A stretch of 64,000 nucleotides of DNA from a virus: the IMG/VR virus record IMGVR_UViG_3300033145_000476, positions 62,001-126,000 of that record; one strand, 5' to 3'. The position numbers and the translations under genes are program-made. The notes under the pieces were generated by a model. That model worked only from the letters and a program-made list of their open reading frames with translations, was not told the origin of the DNA and did not search any database. Below, in pieces: positions 1,470 through 62,073 of the stretch (the stretch's first letter is position 1; every line of letters begins with the position of its first letter).

Positions 1470-2033
1470 CTATTCTATCCTATCCACCAGTCCTATCTCC
1501 AGACTCTCGGTACTGCTAAAGAATCTAGGAAGATTATCGGTAAGTAATTTTTTCCACCAGGACTCAGTATATTTATTGCACCTGGCTGCAACCATTCTTG
1601 AATATTCCCCCTGAAAGAATTTAAGCAATTTATCCTCAGCTTCACGGTTTCTCATATCACCGACACTGGTCGCTGTAAGACCGTGTGCCATAAGAACGTC
1701 CATTCCACCCATAACTCTTTCATCACAGGCTTGAAGAATAAAAAATGCCATTGACATAGCCTGACCATAGACCTTACCAATGACGTTAATCCCTTGTCTC
1801 TGAGCCTCTCTTATCGCAGTAATGCAGCCATTACCATACTCGGCATTACCACCATTAGATGAAATAAGGATGGTAATTGGTTTCTTGCTATCTAGACAAA
1901 GAAGCTTCATATCTTCAATAAAGGTATGTGCTGTGCCACTATCAATTTCACCCCAAATCCCGACTATCCTTGCCTTACGCAGCATAAGTCGTTCTAGTTC
2001 AGTTGTTGCCCCAATAACACTTTCAGATTCCAT
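1470..2033 (-). CDS. ClpP-like serine protease
   Basis: This 187-residue protein belongs to the ClpP/crotonase fold. The catalytic Ser lies in GQAMSMAFF, the His in LMAHGL, and an Asp is available in TDNLPRFFSSTESLEIGLVD, the position of the ClpP Asp. In phages such proteins either pair with a host unfoldase or act in virion maturation. No capsid gene is adjacent here, and the neighbours are nucleotide metabolism genes, so a proteome-remodelling role is as likely. The ATG overlaps the preceding stop by one base (TAATG). Confidence 0.88.
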   Translation of the reverse strand: MESESVIGATTELERLMLRKARIVGIWGEIDSGTAHTFIEDMKLLCLDSKKPITILISSNGGNAEYGNGCITAIREAQRQGINVIGKVYGQAMSMAFFILQACDERVMGGMDVLMAHGLTATSVGDMRNREAEDKLLKFFQGEYSRMVAARCNKYTESWWKKLLTDNLPRFFSSTESLEIGLVDRIE

Positions 2034-2895: not shown

Positions 2896-3264
2896 TTATC
2901 TATCCAGGTGGTATTTGATATTTAACATTCCACCATATTTTTGACATTTAGTACATATTCCAGTTTTATTATCTACTCGTATACTACGCCCACATAACTT
3001 ACACACATCAGGACAAAGAGATTTAACTAAATCTGGTTTGTCTTTAACAAATTGATCAATGGTGACAAACTCATTTATAAGTCCTCGATGTATCATTCTG
3101 TGACAATTCGGGCAAGCATATGTTAAATTTTTCAATGACCAGTGTGATCTATTACCATCAATGTGATGAACGTCACAAGCAGTTTGTTTCCACCCACAAT
3201 AAAAACACCCCACTTTAATCAGCACTCTTCTTATAAAATTAACGTTCTTTTTTATTCTTAACAT
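2896..3264 (-). CDS. HNH-type nuclease or zinc-binding protein
   Basis: The 122-residue protein has an HNH core: CFYC near residue 20, then DVHHIDGNRS with the double His, then NLTYACPNCHRMIH with the second CxxC and final His. A second zinc pair, CKLC and CTKC, follows at the C-terminus. HNH proteins cut DNA and are common as free-standing homing endonucleases in phages. The start overlaps the end of the upstream gene by 26 nt. Confidence 0.85.
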   Translation of the reverse strand: MLRIKKNVNFIRRVLIKVGCFYCGWKQTACDVHHIDGNRSHWSLKNLTYACPNCHRMIHRGLINEFVTIDQFVKDKPDLVKSLCPDVCKLCGRSIRVDNKTGICTKCQKYGGMLNIKYHLDR

Positions 3265-4633: not shown

Positions 4634-4963
4634 TGGAGGTGGGGGAGAGTCGAACTCCCCGTCCAGACCGATCTAATATACACTTTCTACAAGTTTATTT
4701 ACTTTGCATCTTAGCAACACTACTAAGTAACAACTCGTGTTGAGCATCCAGCATTTTTAAGCTGAGACTGGAATTAGCTCTTTTTCCGCCACTGAACGGT
4801 CTTCCAAGAGAGTCGTAGCGGGAGTCTCATCTAGGAAGAGTAATCCTTCTTGCAGGACTACGAATAAATTAGGTTTGCCAGTTATTGGCTTTTGCTATTT
4901 ATAGTCTTTGCCGACTACTTGCTTATGTATATCAACATCACCCTGTCGAAGCCACGCACCCCC
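4634..4963 (-). ncRNA. ssrA: Transfer-messenger RNA
   Basis: The 5' end reads GGGGGTGCGTGGCTTCGACA and the 3' end GACGGGGAGTTCGACTCTCC followed by an acceptor strand. The seven acceptor pairs form (one G-U), the T-arm is canonical, and GATATACA near the 5' end pairs with TGTATATT near the 3' end (helix P2). tmRNA rescues stalled ribosomes. The terminal CCA is not encoded (A then CAA). The context AATAACTGGCAAA resembles the resume site of Bacillus tmRNA. Starting at that GGC gives an unusually long open tag of 40 codons ending VSA; starting at the overlapping GCA gives only ANLIYS. Neither ends in the usual LAA. The 5' end is 2 nt from the preceding gene's stop. Confidence 0.93.
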
Positions 4964-21408: not shown

Positions 21409-21589
21409 ATGTATCCACACAATCTCTTGTCCTAGCAGGCTGTGGTGTGGTAAATGCACAAGTCCTGCCGAATGTCGCTTCGCATTACCCATCGTGGCAG
21501 AGGATGGGATGGTCAAAAATTGCGAAATGTGTATGACAAAATTTACTTGCTGGACTGAGCGAGAGCCAGAGAGAGCAATTATCTTATGA
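21395..21589 (+). CDS. Cys-tag protein
   Basis: A 64-residue protein with a GTG start. Residues 6-27 hold CIHTISC, CGKC and CRF, an additional Cys cluster. The Cys tag CEMCMTKFTCWTER is at residues 43-56. Overlaps both neighbours. Confidence 0.7.
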   Translation: MIVYKCIHTISCPSRLWCGKCTSPAECRFALPIVAEDGMVKNCEMCMTKFTCWTEREPERAIIL

Positions 21590-22503
21590 AAACTTGGATG
21601 AATAAATTAGACCCTCTTTACGAGGGGTTGCCATTTATGGAAATTGAGGGTGAGATGATTTCTTACCCCTGTGTGGCAGAAGTGAAGCTGGATGGTGAGT
21701 TTCAATATATTATTAAGCGGAATGGTATTGTCTATCTCGCTAACAAACGAGAGCACGGCAGAATAAGGACTGATATGCCTGTGACCAATATTGACATTCC
21801 CGACAACTCCGTTTTTCTCGGTGAGTTAGTGTGGGGAGCAGGCAAAGATTTCTATGATTTTGCGAGACATAAACTTGACCCTGACTGTAATCTTGGCATC
21901 TATGGTTGTATCAAATATGCTGGTAAGCAATTGTGGGGAAAGGCAACATATACCGAGACAAGACAATTGCTTGAGAGTCTGAAATTCTATACTGATAAAG
22001 TAGTGCTAGTCCCTGCCGTTGAGATACACGATACTCAAGAATTAGAAGATTTCTTCAAACAAGTGGTAGCTAGTGGGTATGAGGGGCTGGTAATCAAACA
22101 GCTAGACTCTAAATACATAAATGGAAAGAGTTATCATTGGGCAAAAAAGAAGTTCCAAACTGAAGCAGATTTGGTTATCTGTGGTTATCAAACTGGAACT
22201 AAGAGGGCAAAGAATTTAACGGTTCTGGTCGGACATTTGGTGGATGGGGAAATCAAACCACTTACTCACGTTGGTGGCGGTTTTAAGTATGAAGAAAAAA
22301 TGGAATTGCTTAGTGCTTTGCAAGGATGCCCATCCATTGGCAAGCTAAAGGATGACGTTCTTGTTGAACCTAAAATCGTAATTAAGGTAATTTACAATGG
22401 AGTAATATACAATCCTGATGGGAGCATTAACTCATTAAGGCATCCAAGATTTGATAGATTTCGCTTTGATAAAGCCGTGAAGGAGATAGATACAATAAAA
22501 TGA
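21586..22503 (+). CDS. ATP-dependent DNA ligase
   Basis: A 305-residue protein that would seal DNA nicks or ends using ATP. Nucleotidyltransferase motifs: I EVKLDGE (adenylated Lys, residue about 33), III FLGELVW, IIIa IYGCIKYAG, IV EGLVIKQ, V WAKKK. An OB-fold follows (LVICGYQTGT...HVGGGFK). The compact size resembles the ligase part of LigD-type non-homologous end-joining enzymes. A Ku gene lies 1.6 kb downstream, so an end-joining role is likely. Confidence 0.93.
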   Translation: MKTWMNKLDPLYEGLPFMEIEGEMISYPCVAEVKLDGEFQYIIKRNGIVYLANKREHGRIRTDMPVTNIDIPDNSVFLGELVWGAGKDFYDFARHKLDPDCNLGIYGCIKYAGKQLWGKATYTETRQLLESLKFYTDKVVLVPAVEIHDTQELEDFFKQVVASGYEGLVIKQLDSKYINGKSYHWAKKKFQTEADLVICGYQTGTKRAKNLTVLVGHLVDGEIKPLTHVGGGFKYEEKMELLSALQGCPSIGKLKDDVLVEPKIVIKVIYNGVIYNPDGSINSLRHPRFDRFRFDKAVKEIDTIK

Positions 22504-24078: not shown

Positions 24079-24834
24079 ATGGCGGATAGACCTATCTTCA
24101 AGGGTGCTATTTCGTTGGGTTCGTTCCTTATCCCAATGAGAATAGTGAAAGCCACAAAGGAGCACGATGTCAAATTCCACGAATATCACGCAACGGATTT
24201 GGGTCGGGTTGGCAGGTCAAAACCTTGTAAGTCCTGCGGCAACATTCTGACCGAAGCAGACATCATCAAGGGTGTGGAAATTACCAAAGGCAACGTGATT
24301 TCCTTTACCAAAGAGGAACTGGAAAATCTCCCCATCAAGTCGGCTAAGACAATCGAGATAGACCGCTTCGTTAAAGCTGACGAACTCAGTCCTTTGATGA
24401 TGGAAGATGCCTACTACGTTCTTCCAGAGGAAATCGGGGTCAAGGCATTTGAACTTTTTGTCAAGGGTCTGAAAAAGCAACGCAAGGTTGCTATCGGTAA
24501 AATCGTTATGAGGCAACGAGAGCACATCTGTGCTATGCAGCCGATGGGTAGCGGACTTCTGCTTAATACGGTCTATTATGCAGATGAAATCAGGGATATG
24601 CCTCAAGTACCAAAGGCTCAGGTGGTAGATGATGAGGTAGAGCTTATCTGTCAAGTTATCAACAAATACACCAAGCCATTTGAGCACGGAGCATACACCG
24701 ATGAATACACAGATGCGGTGCAAGCTCTGATTGATGCCAAGCTAAAGGGAGAGACACCTCCAGTAGCACCAACGGCTCAAGCTAAGGAAGCACCTAATCT
24801 GAAAGACGCCCTGACAGACCTACTTAATAAATAA
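24079..24834 (+). CDS. ku: Ku-family DNA end-binding protein
   Basis: A 251-residue protein matching bacterial Ku over its length: FKGAISLGSFLIPMRIVKAT and the ATDLGRVGRSKPCKSCGNIL block, KGVEITKGNVISFTKEELENL, the DAYYVLPEE segment and IGKIVMRQREHICAMQP. Bacterial Ku is a homodimer that encircles DNA ends and recruits the ligase for end joining. A CKSC pair is present. The length is slightly short, and the C-terminal tail is an Ala/Pro-rich linker plus helix. A matching ligase is at 21586. GGAGG precedes the ATG. Confidence 0.95.
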   Translation: MADRPIFKGAISLGSFLIPMRIVKATKEHDVKFHEYHATDLGRVGRSKPCKSCGNILTEADIIKGVEITKGNVISFTKEELENLPIKSAKTIEIDRFVKADELSPLMMEDAYYVLPEEIGVKAFELFVKGLKKQRKVAIGKIVMRQREHICAMQPMGSGLLLNTVYYADEIRDMPQVPKAQVVDDEVELICQVINKYTKPFEHGAYTDEYTDAVQALIDAKLKGETPPVAPTAQAKEAPNLKDALTDLLNK

Positions 24835-36730: not shown

Positions 36731-37053
36731 TAGTAGGGTTAAAGAAAAGGCAAGCAAGTAAAGAGTTTTACGAACTCGGTGTTTTGGATTATATAGGTGT
36801 CAAATCGGAAATAATCACTTACTATAATACGAGAAAACCACACGTGGGGCGTAACTTTCGTAGGTCGTGGGCTGTAGTAAGAACATTTAATCCTGTGCGG
36901 AGAGGTAGGATTTATCAATGGGAGAGTGATTACATCTACACCCAACCACGTCTGATAAAGAAGATATGTGATGAAGTTGAGCCTGCTGCTTGTAGAAGTG
37001 AGACTTGCCCATATCGGTTTAGATGTTTTACATCGAAGGTTAAGGATAGATAA
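36727..37053 (+). CDS. Cys-tag protein (variant spacing)
   Basis: A 108-residue protein with a basic strand-rich body (HVGRNFRRSWAVVRTFNPV). The tag near the C-terminus is CRSETCPYRFRCFTS: the first pair is spaced C-x4-C instead of C-x2-C (Cys at 89, 94, 100). Coupled by ATGA to the previous gene. Confidence 0.75.
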   Translation: MIVGLKKRQASKEFYELGVLDYIGVKSEIITYYNTRKPHVGRNFRRSWAVVRTFNPVRRGRIYQWESDYIYTQPRLIKKICDEVEPAACRSETCPYRFRCFTSKVKDR

Positions 37054-37949
37054 TGGCATATTTACACATAGATAACTTATATAAAGACCAGCAAATCTTG
37101 ATGTTCAAAGAGTGCTATGCTATGGAGAAAATTCACGGCACATCGTCTCACATCTCCTACACTCCAGCAAAAGCATTACCTGCGGATGAAAACGTGGTTG
37201 TTCCTAGCCGAATAGCGTTCTTTGCGGGTGGTGGAAGTTATGAAGAATTTATCAAACTTTTCGATGCCGAAGCAATCAGAAAGAAATTAGATGAAATAAC
37301 ACCCACCAAACACGTTCACGTTTATGGTGAGTATTATGGTGGTAAGATACAGGGAATGAGCAAGACCTACGGAACTAAAATGCTCTTTGTAGCCTTCGAA
37401 GTCAAAATTGGTGACACGTGGCTGAATGTGCCCAAGGCAGAGGAATTCGTGAAGAGCTTAGGTCTTGAGTTCGTTCACTATACGAAGATACCTACCACTA
37501 TCGAAGCAATAAATGCAGAACGTGATGCGGACAGTGTGCAGGCAATCCGAAATGGGATGGGTGAGGGACATATTAGAGAGGGAATTGTTTTGCGACCACT
37601 GGAAGAAGTTATGCTGAATAATGGGAAACGGGTGATTGCGAAACACAAACGGGATGAGTATCGGGAAACCAAAACACCTAGAGAAGTTAGCCCTGACAAG
37701 CTAAAGAAGATTGAAGAAGCTAAGGCAATCGCTAATGAGTGGGTCACTCGTGAAAGATTGAATCACATCTTGAATCGTGGTGAAGTTGAGGCTAAGATAG
37801 AGAATACTGGTAAGGTCATCGCTTTGATGACCGAAGACATTCTCCGTGAGGCTGCGGGAGAGATAACTGACTCACCAGATGCACGTAAACATATTGGGAG
37901 AGAGACAGCGTTACTGTTTAAGGAATATCTAAAGGGGGATTTGGCGTGA
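37053..37949 (+). CDS. RNA ligase (Rnl2-like)
   Basis: A 298-residue protein that joins RNA ends using ATP. Motif I is MEKIHGTSS (Lys about residue 26), motif III/IIIa region KHVHVYGEYYGG and MLFVAFEVKIG, motif IV REGIVLRP, motif V VIAKHKRDEY. This is the RNA_ligase family used by phages to repair cleaved tRNAs. An RlaP-like nucleotidyltransferase (46186) and the CCA-adding enzyme (54397) fit the same role. Confidence 0.92.
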   Translation: MAYLHIDNLYKDQQILMFKECYAMEKIHGTSSHISYTPAKALPADENVVVPSRIAFFAGGGSYEEFIKLFDAEAIRKKLDEITPTKHVHVYGEYYGGKIQGMSKTYGTKMLFVAFEVKIGDTWLNVPKAEEFVKSLGLEFVHYTKIPTTIEAINAERDADSVQAIRNGMGEGHIREGIVLRPLEEVMLNNGKRVIAKHKRDEYRETKTPREVSPDKLKKIEEAKAIANEWVTRERLNHILNRGEVEAKIENTGKVIALMTEDILREAAGEITDSPDARKHIGRETALLFKEYLKGDLA

Positions 37950-45919: not shown

Positions 45920-46199
45920 CAGGATGCACCTCGGTTATATGATTTGCCGTCTTGCTATGGAGTGTCATAGGAGAAAGTGTGACAACTGTATATTACGATT
46001 TCAATGTTTTACGGCGAAGTGGTTTCCGTACCCTTTTCCAAAACACTTAAAAACTAACGAGGAGTTTGAAGTCGAATTAACTGATGCGGTAAAATACTTA
46101 GAATATCACGACAATGGTGTGTGGTTAGTGTGGAAAAATAGCAGGGCAAAGCAAAAGAAGGGTGAATTTATAAAGGTATTTGGTGATGGGGAACTTTAA
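45912..46199 (+). CDS. Cys-tag protein
   Basis: A 95-residue protein. The tag CHRRKCDNCILRFQCFTAK is at residues 18-36; the rest is strand-rich (DAVKYLEYHDNGVWLVWKNS). An alternative ATG lies 12 nt further in. Confidence 0.75.
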   Translation: MDSRMHLGYMICRLAMECHRRKCDNCILRFQCFTAKWFPYPFPKHLKTNEEFEVELTDAVKYLEYHDNGVWLVWKNSRAKQKKGEFIKVFGDGEL

Positions 46200-46968
46200 A
46201 GAAGAGGTTCTAAACAACGTAGCAATAGGTGCAGGCAAGGTTGAACAGAGGTTAGCTGAGAAAAAGCAGAAACTTCTTTATCTAGCCGTGTCTGGCTCTC
46301 ACGCTTGGGGGCTGGAACGACCAGATAGCGACTTTGATTTGCGTGGTATATATCAAGACCCTACTGATAAGATATTGGATTTGCGTAAAGGTAGAGATAC
46401 GATAGAGTTTACTGATGGCATATATGATGTGCAGTTATATGAAGTTGAGAAATTTTTTAGGCTGCTTTGCAACCACAATGGTAATATGGTTACGTTACTC
46501 CAACTTCCTATGTGTCCTTATATGGATACCGAGTACGTGCCTTGGAACACAATAGGAAATTTCTTTATTACAAAAAAACTGAGATTTTACTATCGAGGTT
46601 ATGCCGAGTCGCAAAGAAAAAGAGCGTTGTCTCAGCGTGGCGGGAAAGCACTTATCTATACCTATCGAGAAATGTTTTCTGGACTATTCTTGATGAAGTA
46701 TGGTTTTATGTGTTTCAACTTCAAACAGCTTTGGCAAGAAGCAGAGGAAAACGGGTGGTATAATGAGGGGTTGCTTTATAAATATTACGCTAACCCAAAA
46801 CTCCCTGTGAGTGATGAGGGTTGGACTAAATTCTATGATGAGTGGGAGATATTGTCAGAAAAGTTAGATACTGAGGCAGAAAGATCCTCATTACCTGATA
46901 ACTTTGATGGTTATGAGCTTTGTAACGCTTATCTCAGGCTACTGAGATTGAAGGGATTAAATTTATAA
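46186..46968 (+). CDS. Nucleotidyltransferase, RlaP-like
   Basis: A 260-residue protein. VSGSHAWGLERPDSDFDLRG is the GS-x10-DxD active-site motif of DNA polymerase beta-type nucleotidyltransferases in the form typical of PF10127 (RlaP), a family found next to RNA ligases. Helical C-terminal domain with CNHNGNMVTLLQLP. It may modify RNA ends before ligation. Confidence 0.83.
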   Translation: MGNFKEEVLNNVAIGAGKVEQRLAEKKQKLLYLAVSGSHAWGLERPDSDFDLRGIYQDPTDKILDLRKGRDTIEFTDGIYDVQLYEVEKFFRLLCNHNGNMVTLLQLPMCPYMDTEYVPWNTIGNFFITKKLRFYYRGYAESQRKRALSQRGGKALIYTYREMFSGLFLMKYGFMCFNFKQLWQEAEENGWYNEGLLYKYYANPKLPVSDEGWTKFYDEWEILSEKLDTEAERSSLPDNFDGYELCNAYLRLLRLKGLNL

Positions 46969-53919: not shown

Positions 53920-54397
53920 CCCAAATAATTTTAATTTTGAGGAACTGGAAAAAGATGGAAAGATAGTCGCAGTATCGGGTTATTTTGATCCGCCCACACC
54001 TACTCATCTTATCTACTTTAGGGCAGCAAAGGAACTTGGGAAGTGGCTAGTCGTTATATTGAACACCGATGAACAATTATTAATGAAGCGAAAAGGGACT
54101 CCACTTGAAGGCAAGATAAGATATGAATGGTGGGACAGAGCATTTATCGTGAACGAATTTAAAACAGTCAATCTGGTTGTAAGGTCAATTGATGAGGGAA
54201 GAGGTATAGCAGAAACTATAAGAGCAATTAAACCCAACATCTTTGCGAAGGGTGGGGATAGAAACCCAAAAGATAATCCTATCCCCCAAGAAGAAATAGA
54301 TGTTTGTAAGGAAGTAGGTTGCGAGATTGTGTATGGTGTGGGTGGTGACAAAGATAGTAAGACACATTCAAGTTCTTGGTATAATTGGGAAAGCTAA
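53906..54397 (+). CDS. Cytidylyltransferase-like protein
   Basis: A 163-residue protein. SGYFDPPTPTHLIYFRAAKE is the (F/Y)D...HxGH strand-loop of the nucleotidyltransferase fold, with the first His replaced (TPTH). LLMKRKGTPLEGKIRYEWWD and KGGDRNPKDNPIPQEEID match the RfaE-type/glycerol-3-phosphate cytidylyltransferase pattern. It would transfer a nucleotide to a small phosphorylated substrate. Confidence 0.78.
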   Translation: MIVIDPNNFNFEELEKDGKIVAVSGYFDPPTPTHLIYFRAAKELGKWLVVILNTDEQLLMKRKGTPLEGKIRYEWWDRAFIVNEFKTVNLVVRSIDEGRGIAETIRAIKPNIFAKGGDRNPKDNPIPQEEIDVCKEVGCEIVYGVGGDKDSKTHSSSWYNWES

Positions 54398-55770
54398 TGG
54401 AAATAATTAGAAGACTGGCAAAAAAGTTTAATACAGCAGGTTACGAACTTTTTGAAGTTGGTGGTCACGTTAGAGATTCTCTGATTGGCAGAGAATCTTA
54501 TGATATTGACCTAACTACTAATGCCAGACCAAAGGTGATTAAATCTTTGGTAAGGGGCTTTGGTAGCGTCTACGATGTTGGTGAGAAGTTTGGAACAATT
54601 GGTCTGATGGTAGATGAACAGCTAATTGAAATCACCACCTACAGAAAGGAAGTTTATGCAAACAATTCTCGCAAACCACAGGTAACCTTTGGCAATAATC
54701 TAATAGATGACCTATCTAGGAGAGATTTTACCATAAATGCTATTGCCCGTAACCCATTGACCGAGGGTATCGTTGATCCATTTGGTGGAATTAAAGACAT
54801 CGAGGCAAGGACTATCAGGTGTGTTGGTAACGATGATGAGAGATTTAATGAAGACCCTCTAAGAATGATGAGGGCAGTTAGATTTGCGTGTCAGCTAGGT
54901 TTCAGAATGGAAGTGAGAGTTAACCATCCAGAGAGGCTTCGCATCATCTCCAATGAAAGAATCAGAGATGAGCTATCCAAAATATTGCTGTCTCTAAAAC
55001 CAGGTTTTGGTATCAGGAGATTGTGCAGTATGAAGCTTATGGATTATATTTTTCCAGAATTTATAAACCTGAAAAATATAGAGCAAGGCAAAAATCACAT
55101 CAAAGATGCTTTCCATCACTCTCTAATGGTTCTGGATAAAGGTGCAAGAATTGACCACAAGGAATACAATCTTGAGTTCAGACTCGCTTGCCTACTGCAC
55201 GACATAGCTAAACCAGAAACAAAGACTGAGGATGAAACTGGCGTTCACTTCTATGGTCATCATTTCGTTGGTTCTAAGAAAGCTAGAAAGGCTCTTAGGA
55301 GACTTAAATATGATAATGATACCATAGATAGAGTATGCCATTTAATCAAGTATCATATGACCCCAATTATGTTACAGAAGGAACTTGTTGCAGGTGAGAT
55401 ACGTAAAAGAGTTATAATGAGGATGATTAGAAAAATCGGAGAGAGTAATATTTACTTGCTACTTGACTTGGTTAAGTGTGATATTCGTTCTTCAAAAAAC
55501 TCAAGATACAAATTTATAAATGTTTTGACTACGATGGTTGATGAGTGTATGAAAGAGCAGCCAGAATCTCTCGTTTCACCATTAGACGGTGACGAGATTA
55601 TGGAACTTTACAACCTAAGACCTTCCCGTGCCGTTGGTAAAATCAAAACCTACTTGACTAATCTTGTTGTAGATGGTAAAATAGATAAGGAAGATAAAGA
55701 GGCTGCTAAAGAAAAAGCTATGGAATATATTAAGACCCAACTAATTGAGGAGATAATGAACGGTGAGTGA
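54397..55770 (+). CDS. cca: tRNA nucleotidyltransferase (CCA-adding) with HD domain
   Basis: A 457-residue protein. EVGGHVRDSLIGRESYDIDL contains the polymerase-beta-type GG and DxD motifs, RRDFTINAIA the second class II motif and EDPLRMMRAVRFACQLGF the base-recognition region. A C-terminal HD domain has LLHDIAKPET and YGHHFVGSKKARKALRRL. It would add or repair the 3' CCA of tRNAs. This fits the tRNA and tmRNA genes here, most of which lack an encoded CCA. ATG overlaps the previous stop. Confidence 0.95.
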   Translation: MEIIRRLAKKFNTAGYELFEVGGHVRDSLIGRESYDIDLTTNARPKVIKSLVRGFGSVYDVGEKFGTIGLMVDEQLIEITTYRKEVYANNSRKPQVTFGNNLIDDLSRRDFTINAIARNPLTEGIVDPFGGIKDIEARTIRCVGNDDERFNEDPLRMMRAVRFACQLGFRMEVRVNHPERLRIISNERIRDELSKILLSLKPGFGIRRLCSMKLMDYIFPEFINLKNIEQGKNHIKDAFHHSLMVLDKGARIDHKEYNLEFRLACLLHDIAKPETKTEDETGVHFYGHHFVGSKKARKALRRLKYDNDTIDRVCHLIKYHMTPIMLQKELVAGEIRKRVIMRMIRKIGESNIYLLLDLVKCDIRSSKNSRYKFINVLTTMVDECMKEQPESLVSPLDGDEIMELYNLRPSRAVGKIKTYLTNLVVDGKIDKEDKEAAKEKAMEYIKTQLIEEIMNGE

Positions 55771-61999: not shown

Positions 62000-62073
62000 T
62001 GGAGGGCAGGAGACTCGAACTCCTAATCTTCTGCTTGCAAAGCAGTTGCTCTCCCTAATTGAGCTAGCCCCCC
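62000..62073 (-). tRNA. tRNA-Ala (UGC)
   Basis: 74-nt cloverleaf, acceptor GGGGGGC/GCCCTCC (one G-U), anticodon TGC in loop TTTGCAA, and one A-A mismatch at the top of the anticodon stem. No CCA encoded. Confidence 0.9.

Follow-up and report, generated by a model that had tools for sequence, protein, structure and literature searches.

What tag does a phage tmRNA append to a protein when neither of the frames that open at its resume site ends in an LAA-type degradation signal? The question is raised by an RNA gene in a 64,000-nucleotide stretch of viral DNA (hereafter the window), which covers positions 62001–126000 of a virus record of 138,618 bases (138.6 kb). An earlier note, made from the sequence alone, had placed an element-encoded tmRNA with tRNA-like ends at 4634–4963. 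In a cmscan search of the window, the Rfam tmRNA model RF00023 matched the minus strand from 4963 to 4631 over its full length (model positions 1–374), at 103.9 bits (the cut-off being 47 bits). As the last three model positions represent the CCA, which is absent from the DNA, the encoded RNA runs from 4963 to 4634. The discriminator base at 4634 ends the encoded mature RNA, so that the earlier coordinates are exact and only the strand is added here. The element in question is a phage, and the tRNA-like ends are borne out by an acceptor stem, a T arm and a G3.U70 pair (Table 1).

Table 1. Features of the phage tmRNA and of two neighbouring genes, in window coordinates.
Feature	Position	Strand	Evidence
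Phage tmRNA gene, encoded part without CCA	4634..4963	-	RF00023, 103.9 bits, full length
Acceptor stem, 5' strand, with G3.U70-type pair (alanine identity)	4957..4963	-	GU at pair 3 in 6/6
Pseudoknot 1, directly upstream of resume site	4887..4918	-	Pairing by eye, spelled differently in each relative
AATAACT, stretch preceding resume codon	4880..4886	-	Same or nearly the same ahead of GGC/GCC/GAC in comparators
Tag reading frame, 40 codons, GKPNLFVVLQEGLLFLDETPATTLLEDRSVAEKELIPVSA	4760..4879	-	Frame translation, six-way comparison
Helix 5 (GTAGTCCT / AGGATTAC), within tag frame	4840..4861	-	100% paired in six
Pseudoknot 2, within tag frame	4788..4839	-	Five pairs with both-side changes
TAA stop codon of tag, past pseudoknot 2	4757..4759	-	Same place in 6/6 (codon 40 or 41)
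Downstream hairpin/pseudoknot, CAACAC / GTGTTG with CTTAG / CTAAG	4710..4742	-	RNAalifold helix; second stem by eye
T arm GGGGAGTTCGACTCTCCCC	4642..4660	-	
Acceptor stem, 3' strand	4635..4641	-	Alignment of six
ClpP-like protease gene, about 2.6 kb downstream of tmRNA, possible partner	1470..2033	-	PF00574 E 3e-13; PDB ClpP E 9e-7
CCA-adding enzyme (tRNA nucleotidyltransferase)	54385..55770	+	PHROG 2244, E 1e-71

The resume site had been read as AATAACT followed by GGC AAA, opening 40 codons to VSA-stop, with a six-codon alternative in the GCA frame. Both readings are exact (ANLIYS-stop for the shorter), and it also holds that neither has an LAA-type end. The comparison with known tmRNAs that the earlier note had called for was carried out by scanning 84,980 species genomes for the 5' motif with AATAACTGGCAAACC after it. 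A single locus was returned, L129, in a Thermomicrobiaceae genome (Chloroflexota), and its tmRNA scores 160.8 bits with RF00023. Its resume site (AATAACT followed by GGCAAACC) is identical to that of the phage, and its frame, GGC AAA CCA CAA CTT GCA CTC GCT GCC TAA, specifies the tag GKPQLALAA. The phage frame begins GGC AAA CCT, mirroring GGC AAA CCA, and this likeness fixes GGC as the resume codon; at codon 10 the phage has CAA where L129 has TAA. The bacterial tmRNA, a one-piece molecule, also resembles that of the phage in its tRNA-like domain, pseudoknot 1, helix 5 and pseudoknot 2 (PK2). However, its tag has nine codons, ends in LAA and stops within helix 5, whereas the 40-codon phage tag runs through PK2 to end in VSA.

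For wider comparison we used 35 ordinary tmRNAs: L129 itself, 30 others from its bacterial class and four of phage or viral-contig origin. Their tags are 8–16 residues long, all end in AA and have G, A or D as the first residue; the resume codons start with G, as does the phage GGC, and many of these tmRNAs share both the resume site and its GGC with L129. In Escherichia coli, the triplet ACU ahead of the resume codon is inactive (PMC2481249). As ACU occurs naturally at this place in the comparators, the E. coli result is no argument against the GGC frame.

Relatives of the phage tmRNA were sought in 2.9 million viral contigs, with the resume motif first and then with a degenerate F-x-V-L-x-E-G-L-L-F-L pattern. 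This gave five further contigs with tmRNAs (L131, L144, L145, L146 and L147; 107–117 bits with RF00023). A profile search in which one pattern was slightly relaxed again gave these five. L131 was recovered first by the resume motif alone and has the core found in the window. Another contig caught by the tag pattern, L143, is without a tmRNA and was discarded as a chance match. The long-tag comparison rests on six sequences, the window and its five relatives. Their resume frames, of 39 or 40 codons, can be aligned with no shift other than one whole-codon insertion, and codon 10 is CAA, AAT, GAA or AAA, a stop in none. Ten of the 11 residues of the core FVVLxEGLLFL are invariant, which is partly built in because the second pattern selected for them, and outside x every nucleotide change in the core is silent. 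The invariant residues number 12 (F6, V7, V8, L9, E11, G12, L13, L14, F15, L16, D27 and E32), and the frame outside the core was not selected on by the search pattern. The tags end in VSA, VTV, ATV (three) and LTV, none of them in LAA or AA. The six phages share their gene order around the tmRNA, and are divergent, with pairwise identities of 54–83% for dUTPase and 37–81% for one small protein. Conservation of the long frame as protein across phages so divergent argues against a chance or broken frame and, together with the L129 likeness, upholds the earlier suggestion that the tag may be long.

Other searches indicate how readily this class would be missed. ARAGORN reported seven tRNAs in the window but missed the tmRNA, and it also missed those of the five relatives, whereas it picked up the ordinary comparators. 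Annotation based on ARAGORN would therefore overlook the long-tag tmRNAs. Against 50,697 phage records, the window tmRNA DNA found no similar sequence and the L131 tmRNA DNA gave nothing beyond short, weak matches (best E 0.3). With the tag, tblastn against phages gave no match below E 2, and nothing similar was found in Pfam, PHROGs, PDB or the phages themselves. The tag profile gave one partial match in 400 Chloroflexota genomes (E 9e-4), in a frame of 680 residues, which we take as chance. Neighbouring proteins used as bait in the viral contigs gave no match and missed L131 too, the exact peptide patterns being too strict.

To separate coding signal from RNA constraint, we analysed substitutions in the six frames. 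In codons 6–16 there are no differences per pair at second positions, 0.17 at first and 0.38 at third positions, the first-position value reflecting synonymous leucines and codon 10. An RNAcode-like substitution score was 423 for the tag frame, compared with −4 and −98 for the other two. With shuffled columns as the reference, p was 0.002 for the whole frame, 0.0004 for codons 1–16 and 0.12 for codons 17–40. When neutral evolution was simulated along the tree, all six frames remained open in about 1% of cases; p was < 0.001 or about 0.005 for codons 1–16, depending on the rate model, and 0.06–0.08 for codons 17–39. There is good support from these comparisons for reading codons 1–16 as coding, subject to the selection of the core by the search pattern, and if they are coding the remainder must be translated to the first stop. 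Selection on the residues of codons 17–40, where the weak signal overlaps PK2, is weakly indicated. In L131 an ATG lies upstream, but in the other five tmRNAs no ATG, GTG or TTG separates the resume codon from the stop before it, so that entry into the frame would need trans-translation; on this ground a free-standing small ORF was rejected.

Two other readings of the locus would deny the long tag a function. A stop lost through mutation or sequencing error would make the long frame an accident, and indeed the phage CAA is one base from the L129 TAA at codon 10, while in 8 of the 35 ordinary frames reading on beyond the stop would meet no further stop for at least 28 codons. All six divergent contigs, however, are without a stop at codon 10, with a conserved peptide and an intact structure, so we rejected this explanation as scarcely credible. 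Alternatively, the +1 (GCA) frame could be the one used, giving a six-residue tag and leaving the long frame as a by-product of helix 5 conservation. The same TAG terminates this frame in all six tmRNAs, and the A at −4 satisfies the A86 rule in either register, but the frame would begin with ACG, CAG and CAA in L145, L146 and L147, unlike the comparator resume codons. Moreover, its peptides (ANLIYS, AKTVFL, ATVKYS, TKLNYL, QNLNYS and QNLNYS) lack an AA end and the coding score is confined to the GGC frame. Its use is therefore highly improbable, and it too was rejected. A working phage tmRNA with a conserved long tag, read from GGC, is very likely on the sequence evidence.

We then considered how the RNA structure accommodates this frame. 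Across the acceptor stem, helix 5 and PK2, 97.5% of cells are paired in the six sequences. Both-side changes occur in 13 cells compared with 4.2 in shuffles, none of 500 shuffles being as high, and sliding the pairing partners abolishes the covariation signal. RNAalifold on the whole alignment identified 29 pairs with double changes, and two pairs of the acceptor stem other than G3.U70 are compensated. The loop of helix 5 carries the sense codon CAA where ordinary tmRNAs have their stop, and in all six phages the long frame reads on across helix 5 and PK2. Changes in helix 5 are all one-sided wobbles that are silent for the tag, whereas PK2 has five compensated pairs and its amino acids vary freely. 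This pattern suggests that it is the peptide that constrains helix 5, and the RNA that constrains PK2.

AlphaFold2, run on the six-sequence alignment, predicted a hairpin with strands at residues 5–9 and 12–16 and disorder beyond the first 20 residues. The model is weak overall (mean pLDDT 62.8, rising to about 80 for the first 20 residues), and a fold search with it found no relative (best E 6). The first 16 residues, with the predicted beta-hairpin and the FVVLxEGLLFL core, are proposed to be the conserved portion that does the work, and what follows them is probably a disordered tail, small and aliphatic at its C-terminus in place of LAA. The two RNA strands of helix 5 encode both strands of the predicted peptide hairpin.

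The features that the sequence supports, namely the tmRNA identity, the frame, the long conserved tag and its passage through helix 5 and PK2, point to the following course of events. The phage tmRNA, charged with alanine and helped by host SmpB, would enter stalled ribosomes. The ribosome would resume at GGC, pass helix 5 and PK2 and terminate at TAA after 40 codons, so that the rescued chain would gain alanine plus 40 residues. During tag translation it would have to open PK2, which together with helix 5 forms a hinge remaining bound at the mRNA entrance (PMC8012679). The phage CCA-adding enzyme could finish the 3' end of the tmRNA, which may need it.

The gene order downstream of the tmRNA offers a candidate partner. 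In four of the five relatives, the same strand carries an orthologue of the ClpP-like gene 2.2–2.4 kb downstream; with the window this makes five of six contigs (2.2–2.6 kb). L131, a short contig, lacks the gene at this position. The five orthologues conserve the Ser and His, the Asp of the triad being placed by eye only. As synteny extends over the whole block, a link between the tmRNA and the ClpP-like gene is only suggestive. Neither an SmpB gene nor a Clp/Hsp100-type unfoldase was found in the six records, and both were rejected as phage-encoded partners. The downstream block of the window also contains an HNH-endonuclease-like gene (2896–3264, minus strand; identity by eye), for which none of the five relatives has a counterpart.

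What the tag is for is a more tentative matter. Rescued chains might be taken off the LAA/ClpX route and handed to another protease, possibly with the phage ClpP-like subunit, a purpose to which we give somewhat less than an even chance. Lon, FtsH or a protease that includes the phage ClpP-like protein could recognize the non-LAA tags. Alternatively, along the lines of the earlier note's suggestion of a tag chosen not to send proteins to the host protease, the long tag may spare truncated phage (or host) proteins, with host ClpXP ignoring the tail, host LAA-tagging being out-competed and the products persisting. The absence of an LAA or AA end from all six long tags, against its presence in 35 of 35 ordinary comparators, is in keeping with such sparing. 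However, nearly any non-LAA sequence would suffice for it, with no need of a conserved hydrophobic 11-residue core, and proteases usually act well on hydrophobic stretches that are exposed; we consider sparing rather unlikely. The proximity of the ClpP-like gene to the tmRNA in five of six contigs makes rerouting at least as likely as protease avoidance. The tag could also act on rescued chains as a non-proteolytic signal or small module, in binding, localization, aggregation or clearing of the exit tunnel. The predicted beta-hairpin is strongly conserved, and a length of about 40 residues roughly spans the ribosome exit tunnel, but the lack of any similar sequence in the databases searched and the weak structure model make this role unlikely. 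Returning to rerouting, its fuller form, which we consider less likely than not, is that this phage clade swapped the degradation tag for a partly folded 40-residue module of its own evolving, read through a pseudoknot, by which products of stalled ribosomes would be led away from host ClpXP to an end set by the phage, possibly with the phage ClpP-like protease.

The Mycoplasma/Mesoplasma tmRNA tag is about 27 residues long. Like the phage tags it is longer and has a non-ALAA end, and the protease to which it is matched is not ClpXP (PMC3985003). It ends in AFA, in hosts of which Mycoplasma is without ClpXP (Gur and Sauer 2008, cited in PMC3985003), and, unlike the phage tags, it is encoded on the host chromosome; no similarity in sequence was noted. 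It offers a precedent for a changed tag. The Carsonella tmRNA also has an unusual tag end and a frame recognized only by comparing relatives, but it belongs to a reduced endosymbiont and is a decaying gene (PMC4131195). Phage tmRNAs themselves are known from mycobacteriophages, Bacillus phage G (PMC4131195) and Melnitz (PMC9004378); Mammaliicoccus phage phi6228 and Enterococcus phage Efs 1-1-1 also carry them, but with the ordinary tags GKQDNLAVAA and AKNENNSFALAA. Reviewed tag lengths are 8–35 residues (PMC8012679), compared with 39–40 codons in the six phages. A 2025 tmRNA database paper with 79 phage sequences stresses the short extreme of two residues, and in the part of its text considered here no class of long conserved tags is reported (PMC11915505). 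What appears new is the longer conserved tag, its different end and the frame through helix 5 and PK2, in a tmRNA of otherwise known kind, and we make no claim of priority. Tags are usually described as short degrons, nearly always AA-ended, and the six phage tags depart from both. They raise the questions of why phages carry a tmRNA, whether the ribosome can translate the PK2 of the tmRNA threading it, and whether viruses are able to change what becomes of rescued proteins.

A match of the resume region to one Chloroflexota tmRNA bears on the host, but as a single motif it is too little to settle it. The terminase-like protein of L131 (6501–8075) has its sole match among 50,697 phage records in Caudovirales GX15bay (21.5% identity), which suggests a poorly sampled phage clade. 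The window tmRNA groups with that of L147 (8896–9234) and shares its extra codon; the neighbouring gene of L147 is nearer those of L145 and L146 (82–83%, compared with 68%). These discordant groupings may reflect tmRNA exchange between the phages. The window also encodes a Ku protein (24079–24834, plus strand; PF02735, E 6.5e-39) and an ATP-dependent DNA ligase (21586–22503, plus strand; PHROG 114), possibly the phage's own end-joining repair. Also on the plus strand, an RNA ligase (37053–37949) and an RlaP-type RNA-repair protein (46180–46968) could form, with the CCA-adding enzyme, a tRNA repair kit beside the phage tRNAs.
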